Assembly: GCA_019912845.1 (NCBI GenBank)
Contig: JAIOHU010000137.1
Location: forward strand, 1 to 64,000
Length of the DNA: 64,000 nucleotides
Source: a bacterium
Lineage (GTDB): Bacteria > Electryoneota > Electryoneia > Electryoneales > Electryoneaceae
Direction: 5' to 3'
Below are positions 27,418 through 36,914 of the stretch, one piece after another. The notes below the pieces were generated by a model, which worked only from the letters and a program-made list of their open reading frames with translations, was not told the DNA's origin and ran no database searches. The position numbers and the translations under genes are program-made. Within the stretch, counting starts at the first letter, position 1; the number at the start of each line of letters is the position of its first letter.

Positions 27418-27585
27418 TTATTCTTGTATAATACGCTCTTCATCGTGTGGATAATAAACATTATACGGTTTTTCTAATAATTGTGCAATTATTGTAGCCG
27501 CAAACGCAACAATAATTGCTGATATAAAAACAATTATCATTTGTTTTGTACTTCTTTTTATTTTTCGTTTCCTGTTTCTTGACAT
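27418..27585 (-). CDS. Small single-TM protein (55 aa), last gene of the EPS operon
   Basis: Read directly: MSRNRKRKIKRSTKQMIIVFISAIIVAFAATIIAQLLEKPYNVYYPHDEERIIQE*; starts 3 nt after the methyltransferase stop. Confidence 0.5.
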   Translation of the reverse strand: MSRNRKRKIKRSTKQMIIVFISAIIVAFAATIIAQLLEKPYNVYYPHDEERIIQE

Positions 27586-27588
27586 TTA

Positions 27589-28434
27589 CTATCCCGTACT
27601 TGCAATTCGTCTCTTTGCCCATGTTTCCAAGGTAGGGGAAAAGATATATCGATTGCCACTCATTTGCTCTACTTTTGATGAAAACAAACCGAACGACCTC
27701 TTTGTATATTCGACCCATTTACCTTTCTTTCCGACACCGTATGCATCCCCACTCGTAAGTGCTCCACCCATTATCTGGAATTCGAGGTTATTTTTGGCGA
27801 ACAGTTTTTTCATCGTTGCAGTTTCATAATTAAAAGGGTGAAATACTGCCGGGTTCTTAAAACCTGTTTGAGTGCCAGCAATTTTCCAAAACTCATCAAT
27901 CTTTCTTACAACCTTGTGGTTTCGTACCCTTAAAAAAAGCAAACCATCATCCAAAAGCAAATCTGCCGCCCGTTGTATCTCATCAAGTGGATTTTCAACC
28001 AGCATCAACACGTCCCAGTAGGTGATCAAATCAAATCTGCTACTTGTTTTTTTCTGCGTCGATAGAACCCCTGATTTGACGGAATGTCCTCTGCTGTTTG
28101 CTATCTCGACCAGTTGTTCTACCGGCTCAATTCCAAATGTTTCCCATCCACGATCTTTTGCTATATCTAAAAATCCTCCAACTCCGCATCCTATGTCCAA
28201 CACGCTGCCTGGTTTGGATAAGTATTTCTCTGCCTTTCGCAGAACAGCTTGATATAGTTCCTGCTTACTTTGGTTGATGGCATAGGTCGGGTTTACCGAT
28301 TCATAATATCCAGTTGAATCTTCGTGTGGTGGATCACGCCAGAGTAGGTTGCAAATTAAACACTTTCGATACAGAGATTCACCATGCTCTTCGATCTCAT
28401 TGGATTCTACATTGCAAATAGGACAAGTTTTCAC
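27589..28434 (-). CDS. SAM-dependent class I methyltransferase with N-terminal Cys zinc-binding motif
   Basis: CPICN...CLICNLLWRDPP; VLDIGCGVGGFLDIAKDRGWETFGIEP. Confidence 0.85.
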   Translation of the reverse strand: MKTCPICNVESNEIEEHGESLYRKCLICNLLWRDPPHEDSTGYYESVNPTYAINQSKQELYQAVLRKAEKYLSKPGSVLDIGCGVGGFLDIAKDRGWETFGIEPVEQLVEIANSRGHSVKSGVLSTQKKTSSRFDLITYWDVLMLVENPLDEIQRAADLLLDDGLLFLRVRNHKVVRKIDEFWKIAGTQTGFKNPAVFHPFNYETATMKKLFAKNNLEFQIMGGALTSGDAYGVGKKGKWVEYTKRSFGLFSSKVEQMSGNRYIFSPTLETWAKRRIASTG

Positions 28435-29930
28435 AATTTACCCCCATACGAAGAGAATTCTGCTTTTTGTTGTTGTTTTATAAAACGCTCGATGGAGTTA
28501 ATGTCTTGGTCGATTTCCTCTTCCTCCAGAAAACCTGGGAGCACGATGACCATAGCCGTGAGAAACCAGAAGGGCTCCATCACACGGACGATAATAAAAG
28601 TATTCGCACCGACAGCATGTGTTAGTAACCCAAAAAAGCTGGCTATAAACCCAGCAACAATACCATAGTATTGTGGAAACCTTTTCTCATTAATTTTTTT
28701 CAAACTTTTCCTTGCATTCACAAAAACGCTTGCGAGTACCCAGGCAAACAGGCTGAATCCCACAACACCAGTTTCTACTAGAACACGGAAATATTGTGCA
28801 TCCTTAAAGCCTGCACCAGTAACTCCATAACCAAATATTGGACGTTTTGTCCATTGCTCCAGCGTACTTGTCCACGATTGAATTCGGAGAGAGGTAGAAG
28901 GATCCAGGCTTGTATCACCCAAATCAACAACATCGGTTCTAAGCGTGTTTTCATCAGAAAAAGTATATTCTACACGTTCGATTACCGCTTCAGGAATAAA
29001 AGCTGGTGAAGCGAGGACAGTAACAGCCAGCACTGCGATGATATATTTTCGTTTGGGTGAAAATGCGATCATGACCAGAATAGAAGGAAAGAATGAAATC
29101 CATGAAGAGCGTGACAGGGTGTAGGCGAAAGGAAGCATCATCAACAGTAAAAAAGCCCCTAAACCAACCATTGCATTGATTTTTTTTGTGCCTGTCATGA
29201 TTCCAATGACAATGAACATGATAATTATCAGATACCCGCCAAGTGTGTTAGCTTCACCCGCTTTCCCTTCAAATGGTGCGGAGACTCGTACCCCGGAAGG
29301 AATTTGAATAATTGCATAGACTGACACGATAAATGCGGTCACAAGCAACAGTGTAATATAACGATTAAATGTTTTTATGTTTCTAATATGCGAAGAAACC
29401 ATGAAGTAGATCATGAAATATTGAAAATATTTAACGTTATACAGAATTCCAACCAGTGGTTTGACGTCGTTGGTAAATATCCCGAGGATGGTGGAAAACA
29501 AGCTGGCGAGAATATAGGCGAAGATCGGTTTGTTCAGCGGGGTTTTGATAAAAATACCGATATCTTTATTCAGGGCTGTTTTTGCAAGCCAGGAAAGCGT
29601 AATGATGCCCAGCAAGACATCATCCACACGAATCACGACATCCCTTTGCGCTGCCATGCTGCCTTCGGCAGCACCACTACCAGATCCAAATTCAGGTGAC
29701 AACAACATGGAGAGAATCAGCATGGAAAGAGCAAAGTCGGTGTTCACGAAAGCGAAGAGAAAAATTACCACACCAGCAAGGAGGTAAATGGCGAGAGATT
29801 CGTTCGCGCCTACAAGCTGGCTGATCCCCAGGGCGGATATAATTATTACAAAAGCTGCCAGGACGGAGAAAACTTTAGAGTTAGAGTTAAAAAACGTATC
29901 AGAGAGAAAGTTTGCCATCACCAACCTCAC
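28431..29930 (-). CDS. O-antigen ligase/polymerase (Wzy/WaaL-like) membrane protein
   Basis: Polytopic; central loop then WTKRPIFGYGVTGAGFKDAQYFRVLVETGVVGF typical of the O-antigen ligase family. Confidence 0.8.
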   Translation of the reverse strand: MRLVMANFLSDTFFNSNSKVFSVLAAFVIIISALGISQLVGANESLAIYLLAGVVIFLFAFVNTDFALSMLILSMLLSPEFGSGSGAAEGSMAAQRDVVIRVDDVLLGIITLSWLAKTALNKDIGIFIKTPLNKPIFAYILASLFSTILGIFTNDVKPLVGILYNVKYFQYFMIYFMVSSHIRNIKTFNRYITLLLVTAFIVSVYAIIQIPSGVRVSAPFEGKAGEANTLGGYLIIIMFIVIGIMTGTKKINAMVGLGAFLLLMMLPFAYTLSRSSWISFFPSILVMIAFSPKRKYIIAVLAVTVLASPAFIPEAVIERVEYTFSDENTLRTDVVDLGDTSLDPSTSLRIQSWTSTLEQWTKRPIFGYGVTGAGFKDAQYFRVLVETGVVGFSLFAWVLASVFVNARKSLKKINEKRFPQYYGIVAGFIASFFGLLTHAVGANTFIIVRVMEPFWFLTAMVIVLPGFLEEEEIDQDINSIERFIKQQQKAEFSSYGGKL

Positions 29931-32263
29931 TTCTCTTTCTTACTGAACATGGAGGTTGTCTCCTTGATTCTCTCCCCGATTTTTCGGATAAAACCGTTCT
30001 TCTCTTCCGCTTTCATTGTGGTTTGTGTTTTTTGGTCTGGTCTGCCATAATAACGCCCATAATAGTAATGTGAGCCAGCATAACCAGCGATATCCGCCTT
30101 CAGGTCGTTCAGTACCACTCCAAGAACATTTGCACCTACAGACTCTATCTGCACTTTCGCACGTTTCAGGGCTGCACGTGGAACTTTACCGGTACGATAA
30201 ATCAACAGCGTTGCATCTGCACGATTTGACAGAATGGCAGCGTCTGTAACGGGTAGAATCGGAGGAACATCAAATAACACGATATCGAATTCTTGAGATG
30301 CTTCTTCCATAAATTGTTTCATTTTAGCGGATGCAAGCATTTCTGAAGGATTGGGCGGTACACCACCGCTAGTGATGATATGCAGGTTCTCCATACCGGG
30401 GGTCATTAAAATGGATTCCATGCCCATCTCGCCCATAATAATATCGGTAACGGTACGGATCGTTTCCTGCCATTTTTTTCTACCCAGTACGATATCTGTT
30501 ACCCCGGGTTCCTGTTCAAGTCCAAAAATTCGATACAGGGTGGGACGCCTCAGGTTGCATCCTACGAGCAATGTTCTGGTACCACTCTGAGCCAAAGTGA
30601 TCGCAAGATTAACAAGGGTGGTTGATTTACCTTCCTGCAAAGAAGCTGAAGTAGCTACCAAGGTTCGGATTTGGCGTGAAATAGACCTGAATTGAAGATT
30701 TGTTCGCAATGAACGGTATGCCTCTGCCACAGGGTCTTTGGGTGCAAAATGGGTAACCAGGCGTGCTGATGAAGCCAGGTTGGGATTGTTCTCCAGCATC
30801 GGATTCTGTTCGACCAATCGATCAGAAACCGCTTCAATGTCAATGTGGGGGATAACCCCCATAACGGGTACCTGTAAATACTCCTCAACATCCTCAATTG
30901 TCCCGATAGATGTATCAAAAGTTTCGAAAAGAAAGGCAAGGACAAGCCCCAGCATCAATCCGATGACGATACCAACGCTTATGGTTCGGAACATATTGAT
31001 ATTAATAGGAGAAGAGTTCAACATCGCAGGACGAACAACCATCACCTCATCTGCTTGATCTGCTTCACGTATCAACGCTTCCTGATGTTTCTCGGTAAGG
31101 AAAGCATATTGATTTTCGCGTAAACTTACTTCTCTAAGCAGTTGTGAATATAGGCGTTGCGTACGTGGAACACTATCCAAAATCGCACTGATATTATTGA
31201 TATATGCTGAAAGCGAATCCTTCTTTTGTTCCATCAGCGACAAATTGCCGCTGACTTCAGAGACCAATTCGCGGATCAAATCCTTAATTTGAGACTCAAG
31301 ATCTACGATCTTGGGATAAGTGGGGCGGTAATCTTTCAGTAATTCGCTTTTCTGAACCTCTAATGAAACCAATCGTTCATTTAACAAACCAAGTGGACCG
31401 GAACCTTCTTCTGAGCTGATCCAATCAATGTCATATTCTTGTGAAAGCTCTTCTTCACCCGAATAACTTATCGACCCATCCGCAAGGATAGTTGGATTTC
31501 TCAGCCCGCTCCCATTTGTTTTTGGCTGAATACGTTCCTGTAGTTGATCGCGCTGGAGCCGAAGTTCTTTTATACGTTCAGCTAAATTTCTCTTTTGTTG
31601 TTCAATGTTTATCAACTCTTCGATGCGAATTTTGATGTGATCATCAAGAACCGGGTAAGGGTTTTGCTCACGATAATTCTGCATCTGCTCTTCGGCGGCA
31701 TTCAATGCTGCCTTGGAAAAGCGTAACTGCTCCTCAATAAATTCCCTGGTTTCACGATCCTGTCGCGTTCTCTGTTCGAGGTGTTCCTCAGAAAAAACTT
31801 CGGCAAGGTTCTGGGAGATTTCCCGTGCTTCATAGGGATCATCTGAGGTGACATATATATCTATGATATTGGTTCTACCATTTCGTTCGGTAGAAACCTT
31901 GGAAATCATATTATTGATCAGGGCGGATAGCTTGGTATCCTGACGAATTTCTCGTGCTGACATAGCGTTGTCGATCAAACCCATCCGTTTGGCAACTTTT
32001 TCCATCACAGGAAAGCTTTGTATCAATTCCTGGGCGGTGGCAATGTTGTCCCAACGTGTATAGGTAAGCTTTTGCAGCAGCAAGCCTGCGACGGTATTCG
32101 TTTCTTCAATCTTTACAGAAGAATAAGTCTGATAGAGAGGGAGTCGCGAGCGACCGAAAAAATAGCTGAATACAGCCACCAGAAGCGTAGCAAATAACAC
32201 TACTTTCCAGCGTCTGCGGAAAATTCGTTGATAATCACGTAAATTCAGGTCGTATTGCGCCAT
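29927..32263 (-). CDS. Polysaccharide co-polymerase / BY-kinase (Wzz-Wzc type) with Tyr-rich tail
   Basis: Wzz N-terminal domain, coiled coil, EGKSTTLVNLAITLAQSG Walker A, FDIVLFDVPPILPVTDA, C-terminal SHYYYGRYYG. Confidence 0.9.
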   Translation of the reverse strand: MAQYDLNLRDYQRIFRRRWKVVLFATLLVAVFSYFFGRSRLPLYQTYSSVKIEETNTVAGLLLQKLTYTRWDNIATAQELIQSFPVMEKVAKRMGLIDNAMSAREIRQDTKLSALINNMISKVSTERNGRTNIIDIYVTSDDPYEAREISQNLAEVFSEEHLEQRTRQDRETREFIEEQLRFSKAALNAAEEQMQNYREQNPYPVLDDHIKIRIEELINIEQQKRNLAERIKELRLQRDQLQERIQPKTNGSGLRNPTILADGSISYSGEEELSQEYDIDWISSEEGSGPLGLLNERLVSLEVQKSELLKDYRPTYPKIVDLESQIKDLIRELVSEVSGNLSLMEQKKDSLSAYINNISAILDSVPRTQRLYSQLLREVSLRENQYAFLTEKHQEALIREADQADEVMVVRPAMLNSSPININMFRTISVGIVIGLMLGLVLAFLFETFDTSIGTIEDVEEYLQVPVMGVIPHIDIEAVSDRLVEQNPMLENNPNLASSARLVTHFAPKDPVAEAYRSLRTNLQFRSISRQIRTLVATSASLQEGKSTTLVNLAITLAQSGTRTLLVGCNLRRPTLYRIFGLEQEPGVTDIVLGRKKWQETIRTVTDIIMGEMGMESILMTPGMENLHIITSGGVPPNPSEMLASAKMKQFMEEASQEFDIVLFDVPPILPVTDAAILSNRADATLLIYRTGKVPRAALKRAKVQIESVGANVLGVVLNDLKADIAGYAGSHYYYGRYYGRPDQKTQTTMKAEEKNGFIRKIGERIKETTSMFSKKEK

Positions 32264-32285
32264 GAACCCTGTTCCACAATTGCTT

Positions 32286-32990
32286 TTATATCACAACAAG
32301 TAAGATTACAATTTGCAGACCGATTGAAACAGCCTGTAGATATCTATTAACTGTCACAATCCATTTTTCCTCTTTAACCGGAACAAAGACTCTGTCACCA
32401 GGCTGTAACAGGATGTTTTGTGACGTATCGCCAAATTCGAAAAATGCGTTAAGATCAATAAGAATAAGGTCTCCATTTGATCTTAAAATAGTGATCTGTT
32501 CAAGATTTGCACCGGGTTGGACTCCACCATACCTCGCAATAAAATTGGCAAGCCGCATCCCCGGAGGTAAACTGTATTCACCCTGGGAAATAACAGATCC
32601 GAGAAGAGATACTTTCTGGCCTAGAAATTCCAGAACTTCAATTCGTAATACTGGATTTACCACATACTTCTGCATTTTATTTCGCAACAATCCCTCCGCC
32701 TGTTTCAGCGTGAGCCCGGTAACTGCAACCTCGCCAACCAACGGAAAATAAATTGTGCCATCATTCTGGATTACCAGGTCAACCTTTTTCCCCTCGTCAT
32801 CAAGGCTACGTTGACCAAAGTAGGTTATTCGGAGACGATCCCCCACCCCCAGCAGATATCCTTCAGGAACCTTCATCGCTGGTGCGCTCTCTTCAACAGG
32901 GTTCATCTGTGCGAAAGAATTCGTATAAATTCCCGCAGTAATGCATAAGATTAATATTAGTATCTGCCGTATCAACGTATTATCCTTCAC
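32286..32990 (-). CDS. Polysaccharide export protein (Wza-like, SLBB)
   Basis: YLLGVGDRLRITYFGQ, IQNDGTIYFPLVGEVAVTGLTLKQAE, SLBB segment, LQPGDRVFVP. Confidence 0.9.
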   Translation of the reverse strand: MKDNTLIRQILILILCITAGIYTNSFAQMNPVEESAPAMKVPEGYLLGVGDRLRITYFGQRSLDDEGKKVDLVIQNDGTIYFPLVGEVAVTGLTLKQAEGLLRNKMQKYVVNPVLRIEVLEFLGQKVSLLGSVISQGEYSLPPGMRLANFIARYGGVQPGANLEQITILRSNGDLILIDLNAFFEFGDTSQNILLQPGDRVFVPVKEEKWIVTVNRYLQAVSIGLQIVILLVVI

Positions 32991-33372
32991 TCGAAATCAT
33001 ACGCGCAAGAACGCTTGTTTCAAGATAATCAAGATCAATTGGCTTTACGACAAAATCGGACGCCCCCATACTCGGAGCTTCAATGCCGATATTTCTGTCA
33101 TGAACGCCAGTCACCATGATAATACCAATATCCGCATTCAGTTTTTTTATTTTCTTGAGCAAATCCAGACCATTTGTTTCTGGGATCAAGATGTCCAGGA
33201 GAATTATGGTGGGAAAATTCTGAATAATCTTCTGCATCGCACGTTCAGGGGAAGTGGCATAATCGGCAGCATACCCTTTAGAGAGGAAGAAGTCGACAAG
33301 AATTTTACATACTTCGACTTCATCATCGATAACCAGGATGCTATTTTTTATCATCCGATACTCCTGCCCCAA
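32980..33372 (-). CDS. Single-domain response regulator (receiver)
   Basis: ILVIDDEVEVCKIL, IILLDILIPETNGLDLL, VTG, KPIDLDYL; overlaps wza-like gene by 11 nt. Confidence 0.9.
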   Translation of the reverse strand: MGQEYRMIKNSILVIDDEVEVCKILVDFFLSKGYAADYATSPERAMQKIIQNFPTIILLDILIPETNGLDLLKKIKKLNADIGIIMVTGVHDRNIGIEAPSMGASDFVVKPIDLDYLETSVLARMISSEG

Positions 33373-33390
33373 AATACCAACTTTGGATAT

Positions 33391-34305
33391 TCAGTTTGAA
33401 AGTGAACCTGTTGATTTGTAAACAGTCCTTGCGATGCTGGCGGCCGTATCAATATCTGCCTCCATTTGCACAGGAACGCGTTGCAGTAGCTCTGAGAGCA
33501 TTTGAAGAGTTGATGCGGCTATGTTATCAAAATAAGTCAGTGACAGCAATTTCATAATCAATTTTGCCTGTCGATTGTCTGTCATATCAATGGAATCATC
33601 CAGCAGGATAATTCGTTTCAGTGTTGCAGATTGTGACCAGGGAACATGATCTGGAGACAATCTTCTTTTCCCACTTGGCTCCAACTGATTCGCCTGCCAT
33701 TGCGGAAAGCGAGTCCATACGTCTTGAAATGCGCGTGGACCATCCCCCATTCCATAAATAATGTGTGAATCGCCATCTCTGCTGAGGAAGACCATATCAT
33801 CTGCGATCAGTTTTCCACCTTCTGCTACTAACTGAAGTGCGCAGGATGTTTTTCCCGACCCCGTTTCACCGGCGAACATAATGCCCATACCGTTCATCTC
33901 AACAGCGCTGGCATGGATTCCACGCATGCCTCTCGCAGCAAATGGGGGCAACAGTGCGGGCAGGATAATTTGGTCCATAATGTCGGTTGCCCGGTTCCAC
34001 GCCCACTGGGGCAAAAAAATACTCCCTGTTCCCGCTCTTGGATGAACTTCGATGAAGGTTCCCATTTGTGGGTGAGTCCAAACCAGCCGCGTCTTATCAC
34101 CGTACGCCCTGGTGTTTCCTCTTTGCAGACTGGTTTCTGTGTCGGGAGGAACCACCTTCAGTACCCCCACCCCAACATTAAAATGAATGTCAGGGTCAGT
34201 CTGGTTTTCACTGGCAATCGGAAATCCTGCCGGAAAGTTTATATTTGGAACCCCGGTTTCAATGGTAAATCCGACTCGTATATCACCAAACTTTCTAACG
34301 ATCAA
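33391..34305 (-). CDS. HPr-kinase-like (HprK-related) P-loop kinase
   Basis: IHASAVEMNGMGIMFAGETGSGKTSCALQLVAEGGKLIADDMVFL; adjacent to PqqD-like gene. Confidence 0.8.
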   Translation of the reverse strand: MIVRKFGDIRVGFTIETGVPNINFPAGFPIASENQTDPDIHFNVGVGVLKVVPPDTETSLQRGNTRAYGDKTRLVWTHPQMGTFIEVHPRAGTGSIFLPQWAWNRATDIMDQIILPALLPPFAARGMRGIHASAVEMNGMGIMFAGETGSGKTSCALQLVAEGGKLIADDMVFLSRDGDSHIIYGMGDGPRAFQDVWTRFPQWQANQLEPSGKRRLSPDHVPWSQSATLKRIILLDDSIDMTDNRQAKLIMKLLSLTYFDNIAASTLQMLSELLQRVPVQMEADIDTAASIARTVYKSTGSLSN

Positions 34306-34308
34306 CGT

Positions 34309-34578
34309 CTATGCCTTTGTAAATCCTGATTCTCTTAGCTTGACAAGAAACTTTTCTACCAGCGGTTCAATCTCTGTCCGCGATGGAGCATTCTTCATTC
34401 TAGTCAATTCTACTTCTATTTCATCCACATTCTGTGCATTGGAAAGCGCACGCCAGACCGTCGCACCGGTATGGTTCAATACTAGATATTCACCATTCTC
34501 TTTTAGAAGTAGTAAGCCTTCATCCACGTCCTGCTCAACAACACCATCTACCGGACGCGGGAGATCACTATCCCACAT
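34309..34578 (-). CDS. PqqD-family (RiPP recognition element-like) protein
   Basis: DGVVEQDVDEGLLLLKENGEYLVLNHTGATVWRAL, a typical PqqD/coenzyme PQQ synthesis D pattern. Confidence 0.85.
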   Translation of the reverse strand: MWDSDLPRPVDGVVEQDVDEGLLLLKENGEYLVLNHTGATVWRALSNAQNVDEIEVELTRMKNAPSRTEIEPLVEKFLVKLRESGFTKA

Positions 34579-34770
34579 AACATTTTCCCTAAAGCTGAAT
34601 CAGATTCGTCGAATCGCTTATATTGTGAGAAATAAAATTTCTAAAAATATGAATATCTCATTCCAACATAAACAAGAAGTCCACACCGGACTGCCATTCT
34701 ATCTTCTTCTTGCTGCTTTACTATAATTTAGTAAGATACTTCAACTACAATGAAATACGCAACCAGAATA

Positions 34771-35949
34771 TCATGTAAAGTAAGACTTTTTCGGTTCCTG
34801 CCTATTTATTCCAAACCCTCTGCTCAACCGATTGAGAACATATTGAACCAATGATATTTCAGGATCATCAAACTCACGTAACAACGCTTTCGGAGGAAAT
34901 AAAAGCCGTTTGAGGTAACCGAACGCTTCACTGCGGCTGTCCTGTAGGTCAATTAATCCCGTGAGACGTCGCAGGTTGCGAGGAGAGACATCTTTACCTC
35001 GCATGATTAACGAGGGAGGTCTACGGTTTAATGTTCTTTGTATTTCGACTATTGACGTATCAACCGCTAAATTCTTCGGTCTAAATCTGAATATCTTTTG
35101 TGTCAGTGCGATGCTGGTGTTGACCGCTTTTGAAATTCTCCAGTCTTTTGTTCGTTTTCTGAATAACTCCTCGTCCAGTTCAATCTCGTTTGAGTTCAAC
35201 AAGCAATAAATATCATAGAACCAGGTTATCTTAAAGTAAGCATGGCGTACACTGTGAAGTGCAAGTATGGCAAGGTGATCTTCGACCGATGGCGCAGAGA
35301 CAGCGAGATTTTTATCAATGGATAAATATCGCTTACATTTTAACAAATCTGAAGAAGGAATCCAGAAAGGCTCAGTGCGATCAACTACTGCCCGATGTAA
35401 ATCCAGGGTAATTGGAATTTCTGGATGGCGTAACACAAGAGCAAAACCGTATTGTTCAGCAATTTTCTTTTCTCGTTTCCAGTGGACACTTTTCTGAAGC
35501 GTCCAGCCATTGTCGCAAAAAACTTCAACAACATCATCAAACTGATCAATCTGAACCAAAATATCCAAGTCACCTGGATGACGATTTTGAGGATTTGGAT
35601 GGTAGAATGCTGCGAGCAACCCTTTGAAATAGATGTAATTATATCCTGATAGTAGTGCGATAGTGTCCTTCAAGGCTGTTTTAGCCAGACGGTTCCTGGC
35701 GATTGCCTGATGTTTTGCGATCTTTAATTTATCAATTTCTCCCTGGTTCAATAGTTCCTGCCATCCATAAATTTCCACTACGGTTTCATACGCCCTGGCT
35801 GAAAGCTCGTTATGGTTTAAGAATGGAATCAGGTCATGCGGAATGGAGGTAATTTTTCCTGGGGGTACTTTGGTCAGCAGTTTAACAACAACATCTAAAT
35901 AAAGACGAGGATCGACCATTAGATTCTGCTTTTCAGGGCTTCCATCCAA
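34771..35949 (-). CDS. Nucleotidyltransferase family protein (NTP_transf_5-like)
   Basis: NYIYFKGLLAAFYHPNPQNRHPGDLDILVQ (GDxD) and architecture; neighbours PqqD/HprK-like genes. Confidence 0.8.
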   Translation of the reverse strand: MDGSPEKQNLMVDPRLYLDVVVKLLTKVPPGKITSIPHDLIPFLNHNELSARAYETVVEIYGWQELLNQGEIDKLKIAKHQAIARNRLAKTALKDTIALLSGYNYIYFKGLLAAFYHPNPQNRHPGDLDILVQIDQFDDVVEVFCDNGWTLQKSVHWKREKKIAEQYGFALVLRHPEIPITLDLHRAVVDRTEPFWIPSSDLLKCKRYLSIDKNLAVSAPSVEDHLAILALHSVRHAYFKITWFYDIYCLLNSNEIELDEELFRKRTKDWRISKAVNTSIALTQKIFRFRPKNLAVDTSIVEIQRTLNRRPPSLIMRGKDVSPRNLRRLTGLIDLQDSRSEAFGYLKRLLFPPKALLREFDDPEISLVQYVLNRLSRGFGINRQEPKKSYFT

Positions 35950-36416
35950 TTTCTTATCCGCCAGAGTAATGGAATTTCCATTGGGTGAATAATTCCAGAT
36001 CGTTTCACGTGTGTGATCATACCGATCAAATGTTCGCGGCTAAAGGGATGAACGATTCTCGAATGATCACCACTTTCAAAAAGAAATTTATCACCGATTC
36101 CCACCAGTCGATGGACAACGGTGTTTTGATTTCCCGGATTTAAACGAAACACCAGCATACCGCATTGCAGTAGCTGGTGTTCAACACTTTTCAGAGGTAC
36201 TACCCGGACAAAGTCCCCGTCAACCAATGTGGGACGCATTGACCCCCCTCTCACTTGTATCCAGAAGGGTGTCTCAAGTTTTTTCAGGTGCTTCAGGCCG
36301 TTTGGCTCAGGGACCCCAAGGATCGGGTTCGTCACTGAAGAGCCGTGCTTCAACTTTTCCTGTTTCAAGAATCTCGGGATCTTCCCAAACTTGTTCTTGC
36401 GAATGGTGCTCTTCAT
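35919..36416 (-). CDS. Signal peptidase-like S26 protein (Sec11/SipW-type Ser-His)
   Basis: VRGGSMRPTLVDGDFVRVVPL...GMLVFRLN...TVVHRLVGIGDKFLFESGDHS; overlaps the NTase gene by 31 nt. Confidence 0.75.
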   Translation of the reverse strand: MKSTIRKNKFGKIPRFLKQEKLKHGSSVTNPILGVPEPNGLKHLKKLETPFWIQVRGGSMRPTLVDGDFVRVVPLKSVEHQLLQCGMLVFRLNPGNQNTVVHRLVGIGDKFLFESGDHSRIVHPFSREHLIGMITHVKRSGIIHPMEIPLLWRIRNWMEALKSRI

Positions 36417-36914
36417 CTTTTCGTGATTCCATCATCCACCTGCTTGATTAAAAGATCATTTAGCGATTAATTCCTGACGTTATAAAAGTGATTCAAAGAG
36501 GCTCTCCTGTCAAGACTCCAGGGACAATGAAAAAAATCCAATTACTCATAGGAGAAAAATAAAAATTATAGATTCAAGTCTCACGAAAGACTCTACTCAC
36601 CTCAAAAATCGCTCACTCAACAATTACTCAAAGCACTACAAAGAGAGACAACTATTCAACGCCCCAAAGGGGGCTGTAAATTTTCTTCAAGAAACACTTT
36701 AACTAATTTGTTCAAAATAGAAAAGACTGTTCCTTGCCAAACGTGGGGAGAAATTCAAGATTCTCAGTGCAGAACTTCAGTATCTAGAAGTGTCTGGTTG
36801 TGCCGAACTTTACTATTTTATAACGTCTTCTGAAGACTTGGCAAACATAGGAATTCAAAGCTTAACAAACAACTCTTCCTACCAAATCTCCAAAGTTATT
36901 TTCTTGTGATCCAT

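Follow-up and report, generated by a model that had tools for sequence, protein, structure and literature searches.

What is the substrate of a peptide-modifying cassette that lies within an operon for the export of exopolysaccharide (EPS), and how might the two be connected? The question is raised by a group of genes in a 64,000-nt stretch of DNA (the window) from a MAG of Candidatus Electryoneota, in the FCB group (G000). A preliminary description placed ten genes on the minus strand, mostly overlapping or abutting, and both order and arrangement were confirmed by annotation, Pfam searches and direct reading of the ORFs.

Following the direction of transcription, the annotated operon starts with an S26/SipW-type Ser-His peptidase that is predicted to be the leader peptidase (35919–36416; a weak Pfam match to S26/S24, E = 4e-4). 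Its end overlaps as TAATG with the gene of an NTP_transf_5 nucleotidyltransferase-fold protein (NTase; 34771–35949; Pfam E = 2.7e-30). After the sole real gap in the operon, of 192 nt, there is a PqqD-family protein, a discrete RRE predicted to bind the leader peptide (34309–34578; Pfam PqqD, 1.3e-8), and 3 nt further on an HprK-like kinase with HASAV, Walker A GETGSGKT and ADD motifs (33391–34305; Pfam Hpr_kinase_C, 2.3e-11). The strand then continues with a lone receiver (REC) protein (32980–33372; Pfam Response_reg, 1e-22), a Wza-like outer-membrane polysaccharide export protein (32286–32990; Pfam Poly_export and SLBB), a Wzc-like chain-length determinant or BY-kinase (29927–32263; Pfam Wzz, GNVR and AAA_31) and a membrane protein of the Wzy/O-antigen-ligase type, either polymerase or ligase (28431–29930; Pfam Wzy_C). 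The operon ends with a SAM methyltransferase (27589–28434; Pfam Methyltransf_23), with orthologues in G003 and G006, and a small basic single-TM protein read directly as an ORF (27418–27585; frame MSRNRKRKIKRSTKQMIIVFISAIIVAFAATIIAQLLEK...); a small TM ORF of similar kind follows Wzy in G005. REC and Wza overlap by 11 nt, and Wzc/Wzy and Wzy/methyltransferase by 4 nt each; the other junctions overlap or are no longer than 22 nt. Of the components of a Wzx/Wzy-type EPS system, Wza, Wzc and Wzy are encoded in the operon; no glycosyltransferase or flippase was found among the operon proteins scanned.

The operon is flanked by rsmG and gyrB. This part of the window (21537–42488) is the oriC region, with yidC-mnmE-mnmG-rsmG on one side and gyrB, a DUF721-like gene, dnaN and dnaA on the other, the last four being identified by inspection. 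In G005 the same operon is found at this site, from gyrB/dnaN/dnaA to mnmG/mnmE/yidC (locus L016), and in Electryonea clarkiae (G003, L018) PqqD-HprK-Wza-Wzc-Wzy-methyltransferase lie between those same neighbours. The assembly of G006 is broken; S26-NTase-PqqD-HprK adjoin gyrB, and Wzc-Wzy-methyltransferase adjoin mnmG/mnmE/yidC on another contig (L017, L152). The arrangement is therefore not due to chance, since the site is shared by G005, in part by E. clarkiae, and at both ends of the operon by G006. In three members of the family that lack the cassette, different genes occupy the site beside gyrB.

The preliminary description suggested that these genes could be a RiPP-like cassette for modifying peptides, tied to the secretion of polysaccharide and acting on a very small substrate, with no obvious precursor present. 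The former idea is supported; the latter was wrong. A 42-codon ORF on the minus strand (36435–36307) encodes MMESRKDEEHHSQEQVWEDPEILETGKVEARLFSDEPDPWGP, and this precursor, assigned from its homologues and codon differences, is the first gene of the operon. It is out of frame with S26 as annotated, whose initial 110 nt it overlaps. The leader contains WEDPEI (36370–36387), a lasso-type RRE-binding motif WxxPxI, and the core is LFSDEPDPWGP (36310–36342), in which the codon of an invariant serine occupies 36334–36336. Two other places had been proposed for a precursor. That at 34579–34770 has in-frame stops and contains none; the interval 36417–36914 does hold the first codons of the precursor, but the rest lies outside it. 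The peptide was first spotted by a three-frame reading of the locus in G006, as a 44-codon ORF upstream of S26 ending SDEPDPWGGP, and in G005 the same peptide is likewise out of frame. The start is preceded by candidate Shine-Dalgarno sequences (AGGTGG in G000, AGGAGG in G005 and AAGGGG in G006). Hidden in an overlapping frame, such precursors would be missed by automatic annotation.

Of 39 genomes in the phylum, six matched a DNA pattern for DEPDPWG and none matched the reversed control. Each of the six matches is a short ORF with a [Y/W]xxPx[I/V] leader and LFSDEPDPWG. Pairwise comparison of the six genomes over these ten codons gives 73 codon differences in the peptide frame, every one of them synonymous; when the same stretch is read in the S26 frame, none of 61 is. 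The ORF is thus very likely to be translated and selected as a peptide. The codon differences rule out conservation of SDEPDPWG as a by-product of the overlapping S26 frame, and the same selection is seen in G037 and Tariuqbacter arcticus (G038), where no S26 gene overlaps. The core is near-fixed across genera, and the serine lies at +17 from the leader Tyr or Trp in all eight EPS-type precursors. A profile search revealed three more divergent paralogues in G037 and G005. G037 has three precursor paralogues (L029 on C137, L177 on C197), with SDEPDPWG, SDEPNPWG and YSDEPPVAPPW, and the paralogue of G005, FTPPTLVEIELLDETLRGFSDEPNPWTP, bridges the EPS-type and MsbA-linked types of precursor. Scanning the DNA of 84,980 species genomes for FSDEPDPW gave 18 matches, of which those bearing a leader were found only in Electryoneota; the others were rejected as coding coincidences with no leader, for example a Halioglobus/Haliea protein with LFSDEPDPWHH.

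The true start of the S26 gene is probably the GTG at 36335, within the Ser-Asp codons of the precursor. The S26 genes of G000, G003 and G006 could all start at a GTG or ATG created by these codons, whereupon the overlap between precursor and peptidase genes would be ∼29 nt. The NTase probably starts at the ATG at 35919. Residues S59, H102 and D117 of the S26 protein (ORF numbering) are invariant in its orthologues, as in SipW/Sec11-type enzymes; no TM segment was found in it. In the NTase G110, R123, D127, D129, H185, H232 and D246 are invariant in 19 relatives, and these include the D127-x-D129 pair. Its fold was modelled with a pLDDT of 86.7, and the nearest solved folds are those of MenT1 and LnuA, followed more weakly by FKRP, solved with CDP-ribitol; a profile search against PDB sequences gave no match. 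At two other loci of the phylum (L112:6620-8245 and L118:6205-7848) there is a natural fusion of S26 and NTase into one protein of ∼545 aa. The AlphaFold model of the PqqD protein (pLDDT 91) is best matched in the PDB by the leader-bound lasso RREs TbiB1 and TfuB1, with TM scores of 0.76–0.86. The His, Walker A and Asp-Asp motifs of the kinase are those of HprK, and it matches HprK/P structures by profile; a protein-level scan of the 84,980 genomes with the kinase gave no match.

The same set of enzymes makes the linear polyphosphorylated peptides (LPP) of the lpp cluster of Paenibacillus alginolyticus (Popov et al. 2026, PMC13381572), so the chemistry of the cassette is precedented. In that pathway LppB (an RRE) presents the precursor to the SipW-like LppS, which cuts the leader; Ser3 of the core is polyphosphorylated by LppK, LppN had no detectable effect when LPP was expressed heterologously, and the MsbA-like LppD is the export pump (PMC13381572). 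The leader consensus is YxxPxVLxHQxIxFETxxS, with the serine at +18, and the LPP and paeninodin clusters of Bacilli are often found within capsule loci (PMC13381572). The window shares with LPP the combination of a discrete RRE, an HprK-like kinase, a SipW-like S26 with Ser/His/Asp and an NTP transferase, together with the absence of a macrolactam cyclase, a [Y/W]xxP leader, a serine only one residue away from the phosphoserine of LPP, and proximity to polysaccharide genes, as in the capsule loci. There are also clear differences. The system comes from Electryoneota rather than Bacillota, and the operon has an EPS export module instead of an MsbA-like transporter. Its leader keeps [W/Y]xxPx[I/V] and mostly I, V or L at position 12, but HQ and FET are missing and the serine is at +17, not +18. 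The core is short and invariant, whereas LPP cores are variable, and the precursor overlaps the peptidase gene. As the operon lacks an MsbA transporter and the leader lacks HQ and FET, we have filed the system as a variant resembling LPP, outside LPP itself. The possibility had been raised that these genes were an already characterised set. That is so for the enzymes, but the LPP paper confines the pathway to Bacillota and describes it with an MsbA exporter and with no known biological role; a form with a fixed core linked to an EPS exporter does not appear there (PMC13381572). The best reading of the cassette is thus as a new EPS-coupled variant of the LPP-like RiPPs.

Three other families were compared. 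Lasso peptides of the paeninodin/pseudomycoidin type also employ an RRE, an HprK-like kinase and an NTase for a serine of a leader-bearing precursor, and the precursor in the window has an RRE-type [Y/W]xxPx[L/I/V] leader. However, the operon has an S26 peptidase in place of cyclase and B2 protease genes, and its product is presumably linear; identity as a lasso peptide was rejected, as no match to the B2 protease (PF13471) was found in the genome. The SynChlorMet (SCM) system (NCBIfam TIGR04248-TIGR04251) is resembled by PqqD, HprK-like ScmC, S26 and NTase neighbourhoods elsewhere in the phylum, where two kinases and one radical SAM pair score above the ScmC/E/F cut-offs. The window kinase reaches only 19.7 bits with the ScmC model, whose cut-off is 125, there is no radical SAM pair, and the precursor is not Cys/Gly-rich. 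Elsewhere, L111 and L114 are SynChlorMet-type cassettes having Cys/Gly-rich precursors with YEKPEL leaders, and in L111 both radical SAM proteins exceed the ScmE and ScmF cut-offs. The HPr-rel-A system (TIGR04352/TIGR04353), associated with exosortase/EPS loci, has the same pairing of HprK-like and PqqD proteins, but the window kinase reaches 23 bits where 200 are required, and the PqqD of the window is not among the TIGR04353 matches. No paper dealing with both PqqD and an exosortase was found in the literature searched.

We propose, with a probability of about 65%, that the product of the operon is a short phosphopeptide of ribosomal origin, reserved for the EPS export module of the same operon, as follows. 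The PqqD protein would bind the [W/Y]xxPx[I/V] leader of the 42-aa precursor, and the HprK-like kinase would phosphorylate, or perhaps polyphosphorylate, the single invariant serine of the core (Ser34) in FSDEPDPWG. From the analogy with LppN, and with PsmN, which puts hexoses on phosphoserine in pseudomycoidin (PMC9266682), the NTase-fold protein is predicted to take the phosphorylated peptide as its substrate; it would then add a sugar or sugar-phosphate to the serine phosphate. Cleavage of the leader by the SipW-type S26 would leave a core of ∼10–13 residues, which may be passed to Wza/Wzc/Wzy in place of the usual MsbA-type exporter, and leave with or as part of the polysaccharide. This handover is proposed on the basis of gene linkage and co-occurrence.

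The REC-Wza-Wzc-Wzy module is present in five of the six peptide-bearing genomes, and REC adjoins Wza in G005, G038, G009 and G012 also. When the phylum was searched with Wzc the best matches were in G000, G003, G005, G006 and G038, followed by G012 and G009. These seven cassette-linked Wzc proteins and a fragment at a contig end in G010 form one clade with 100/100 support, in a tree that carries a long-branch warning. Five of the seven are on the same contig as all or part of the cassette; of the remaining 23 Wzc genes in the tree, none has a PqqD gene on its contig. In G006 and G038 the cassette stops at the end of one contig and the EPS module begins at the end of another, so that the link crosses contig breaks, and no end overlap joining C310/C134 of G038 or C415/C558 of G006 was found. 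Within the family four genomes have both the peptide and the Wzc clade and three have neither, the members without peptide also being without the operon; in the phylum five of the six peptide genomes have the clade. Fisher tests give p ∼1e-5 for the phylum and 0.03 within the family; their significance is inflated by relatedness, and the family genomes are not phylogenetically independent. The linkage is not absolute, because the precursor is unlinked in three genomes. In G003 precursor, S26 and NTase lie apart from PqqD, HprK and the EPS genes. In G037 and G038 a solitary precursor gene precedes Por_Secre_tail genes, and G037 has no close Wzc and no PqqD match (assembly 77% complete).

A second EPS-coupled cassette occurs in the sister family f2 (G009 L108:7440-16001, G012 L109:1835-9552), with the order NTase-HprK-PqqD-radical SAM/SPASM-precursor-S26-REC-Wza-Wzc; in G009 an arginine-methyltransferase-like gene is inserted after the precursor. 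The absence of radical SAM noted in the preliminary description is therefore true of the window locus, but not of this version. The f2 precursor (59 aa, MKRKYHPPEI...CYERTRS) has a C-terminal serine. A kinase tree has separate supported groups for f2, for the window type (four of its five kinases) and for the ABC-linked ScmC type, with the long-branched G038 kinase unplaced, and the two links to EPS may thus involve different kinases.

It is conceivable that this is an ordinary secreted peptide system of LPP type that merely shares a promoter with the EPS genes, its product being secreted by an unlinked ABC exporter. LPP clusters do co-localise with capsule genes in Bacilli (PMC13381572), and many MsbA-linked cassettes occur elsewhere in the phylum (their precursors include KKRDYEPPELIEIDLLDESARGWSEPPPPEQPGG; the two kinases scored are both ScmC). 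We consider this unlikely. Both EPS-linked versions lack MsbA and share one Wzc clade, the core is fixed where those of LPP vary, and no ABC-type cassette was found in the G000 genome, which has only two PqqD genes, the second belonging to an ATP-grasp/decarboxylase set. In that set (L019:1396-4005 on G000:C196, and L156:6323-9109 on G022:C9) genes for an ATP-grasp protein and for a PLP-dependent decarboxylase come after PqqD. The decarboxylase has a lasso-type leader tag at its own N-terminus (KPYVKPTIVRHASGGILNKFGRPP / KQFWEKPTIVKHIVGLTNKFGRHP), apparently an RRE client tag fused to an enzyme of 450 aa.

Another improbable explanation is that the peptide regulates EPS assembly from within the cell or the periplasm: its phosphorylated acidic (DEPD) core would gate export by docking on Wzc, on the receiver or on the polymerase, and the peptide would not leave in the polymer. 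The lone receiver and BY-kinase of the operon would suit such a role, and a fixed core suggests a protein-binding ligand over a varying secreted product. However, a leader peptidase and NTase imply a processed and decorated product, export is presumed for the LPP and lasso relatives, and in G037 and G038 the precursor adjoins genes of secreted proteins instead. Those same Por_Secre_tail neighbours, and the overlapping starts of precursor and S26, would accord with the kinase and NTase modifying a larger envelope protein, the short ORF being only a translational-coupling leader for S26, but this is very improbable given selection at the amino-acid level even where no S26 overlaps, a canonical RRE leader motif, and G037 paralogues that retain most of the core.

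Both precursors on C137 of G037 lie directly upstream of a Por_Secre_tail protein gene. At ten loci (L021, L106, L107, L112, L113, L115, L118, L119, L029 and L030) an LPP-like precursor or cassette, ABC-linked or stand-alone, adjoins a Por_Secre_tail (PNPFNP) gene, mostly downstream of it, and upstream in L029 and L030. This adjacency looks enriched, on a background of ∼60 to 550 candidate tails per genome.

Returning to a phosphopeptide dedicated to the EPS module, a stronger form, which we hold only tentatively and think unlikely, is that the peptide becomes covalently part of the exopolysaccharide. The serine phosphate and a first sugar added by the NTase would then be a primer or end cap for the Wzy/ligase-type protein, with exit via Wza. 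If true, this would be a RiPP-primed polysaccharide.

The locus places an LPP-like cassette outside the Bacillota, in a little-known phylum, joined to an EPS export operon and without an exporter of its own. The role of LPP has been hinted at only by its capsule-locus neighbours, and the operon provides a system and a substrate with which to ask whether phosphorylated RiPPs act in polysaccharide assembly. With a peptide gene that is near-unchanging, the idea that a ribosome-made peptide may be part of the building of a polymer becomes testable.
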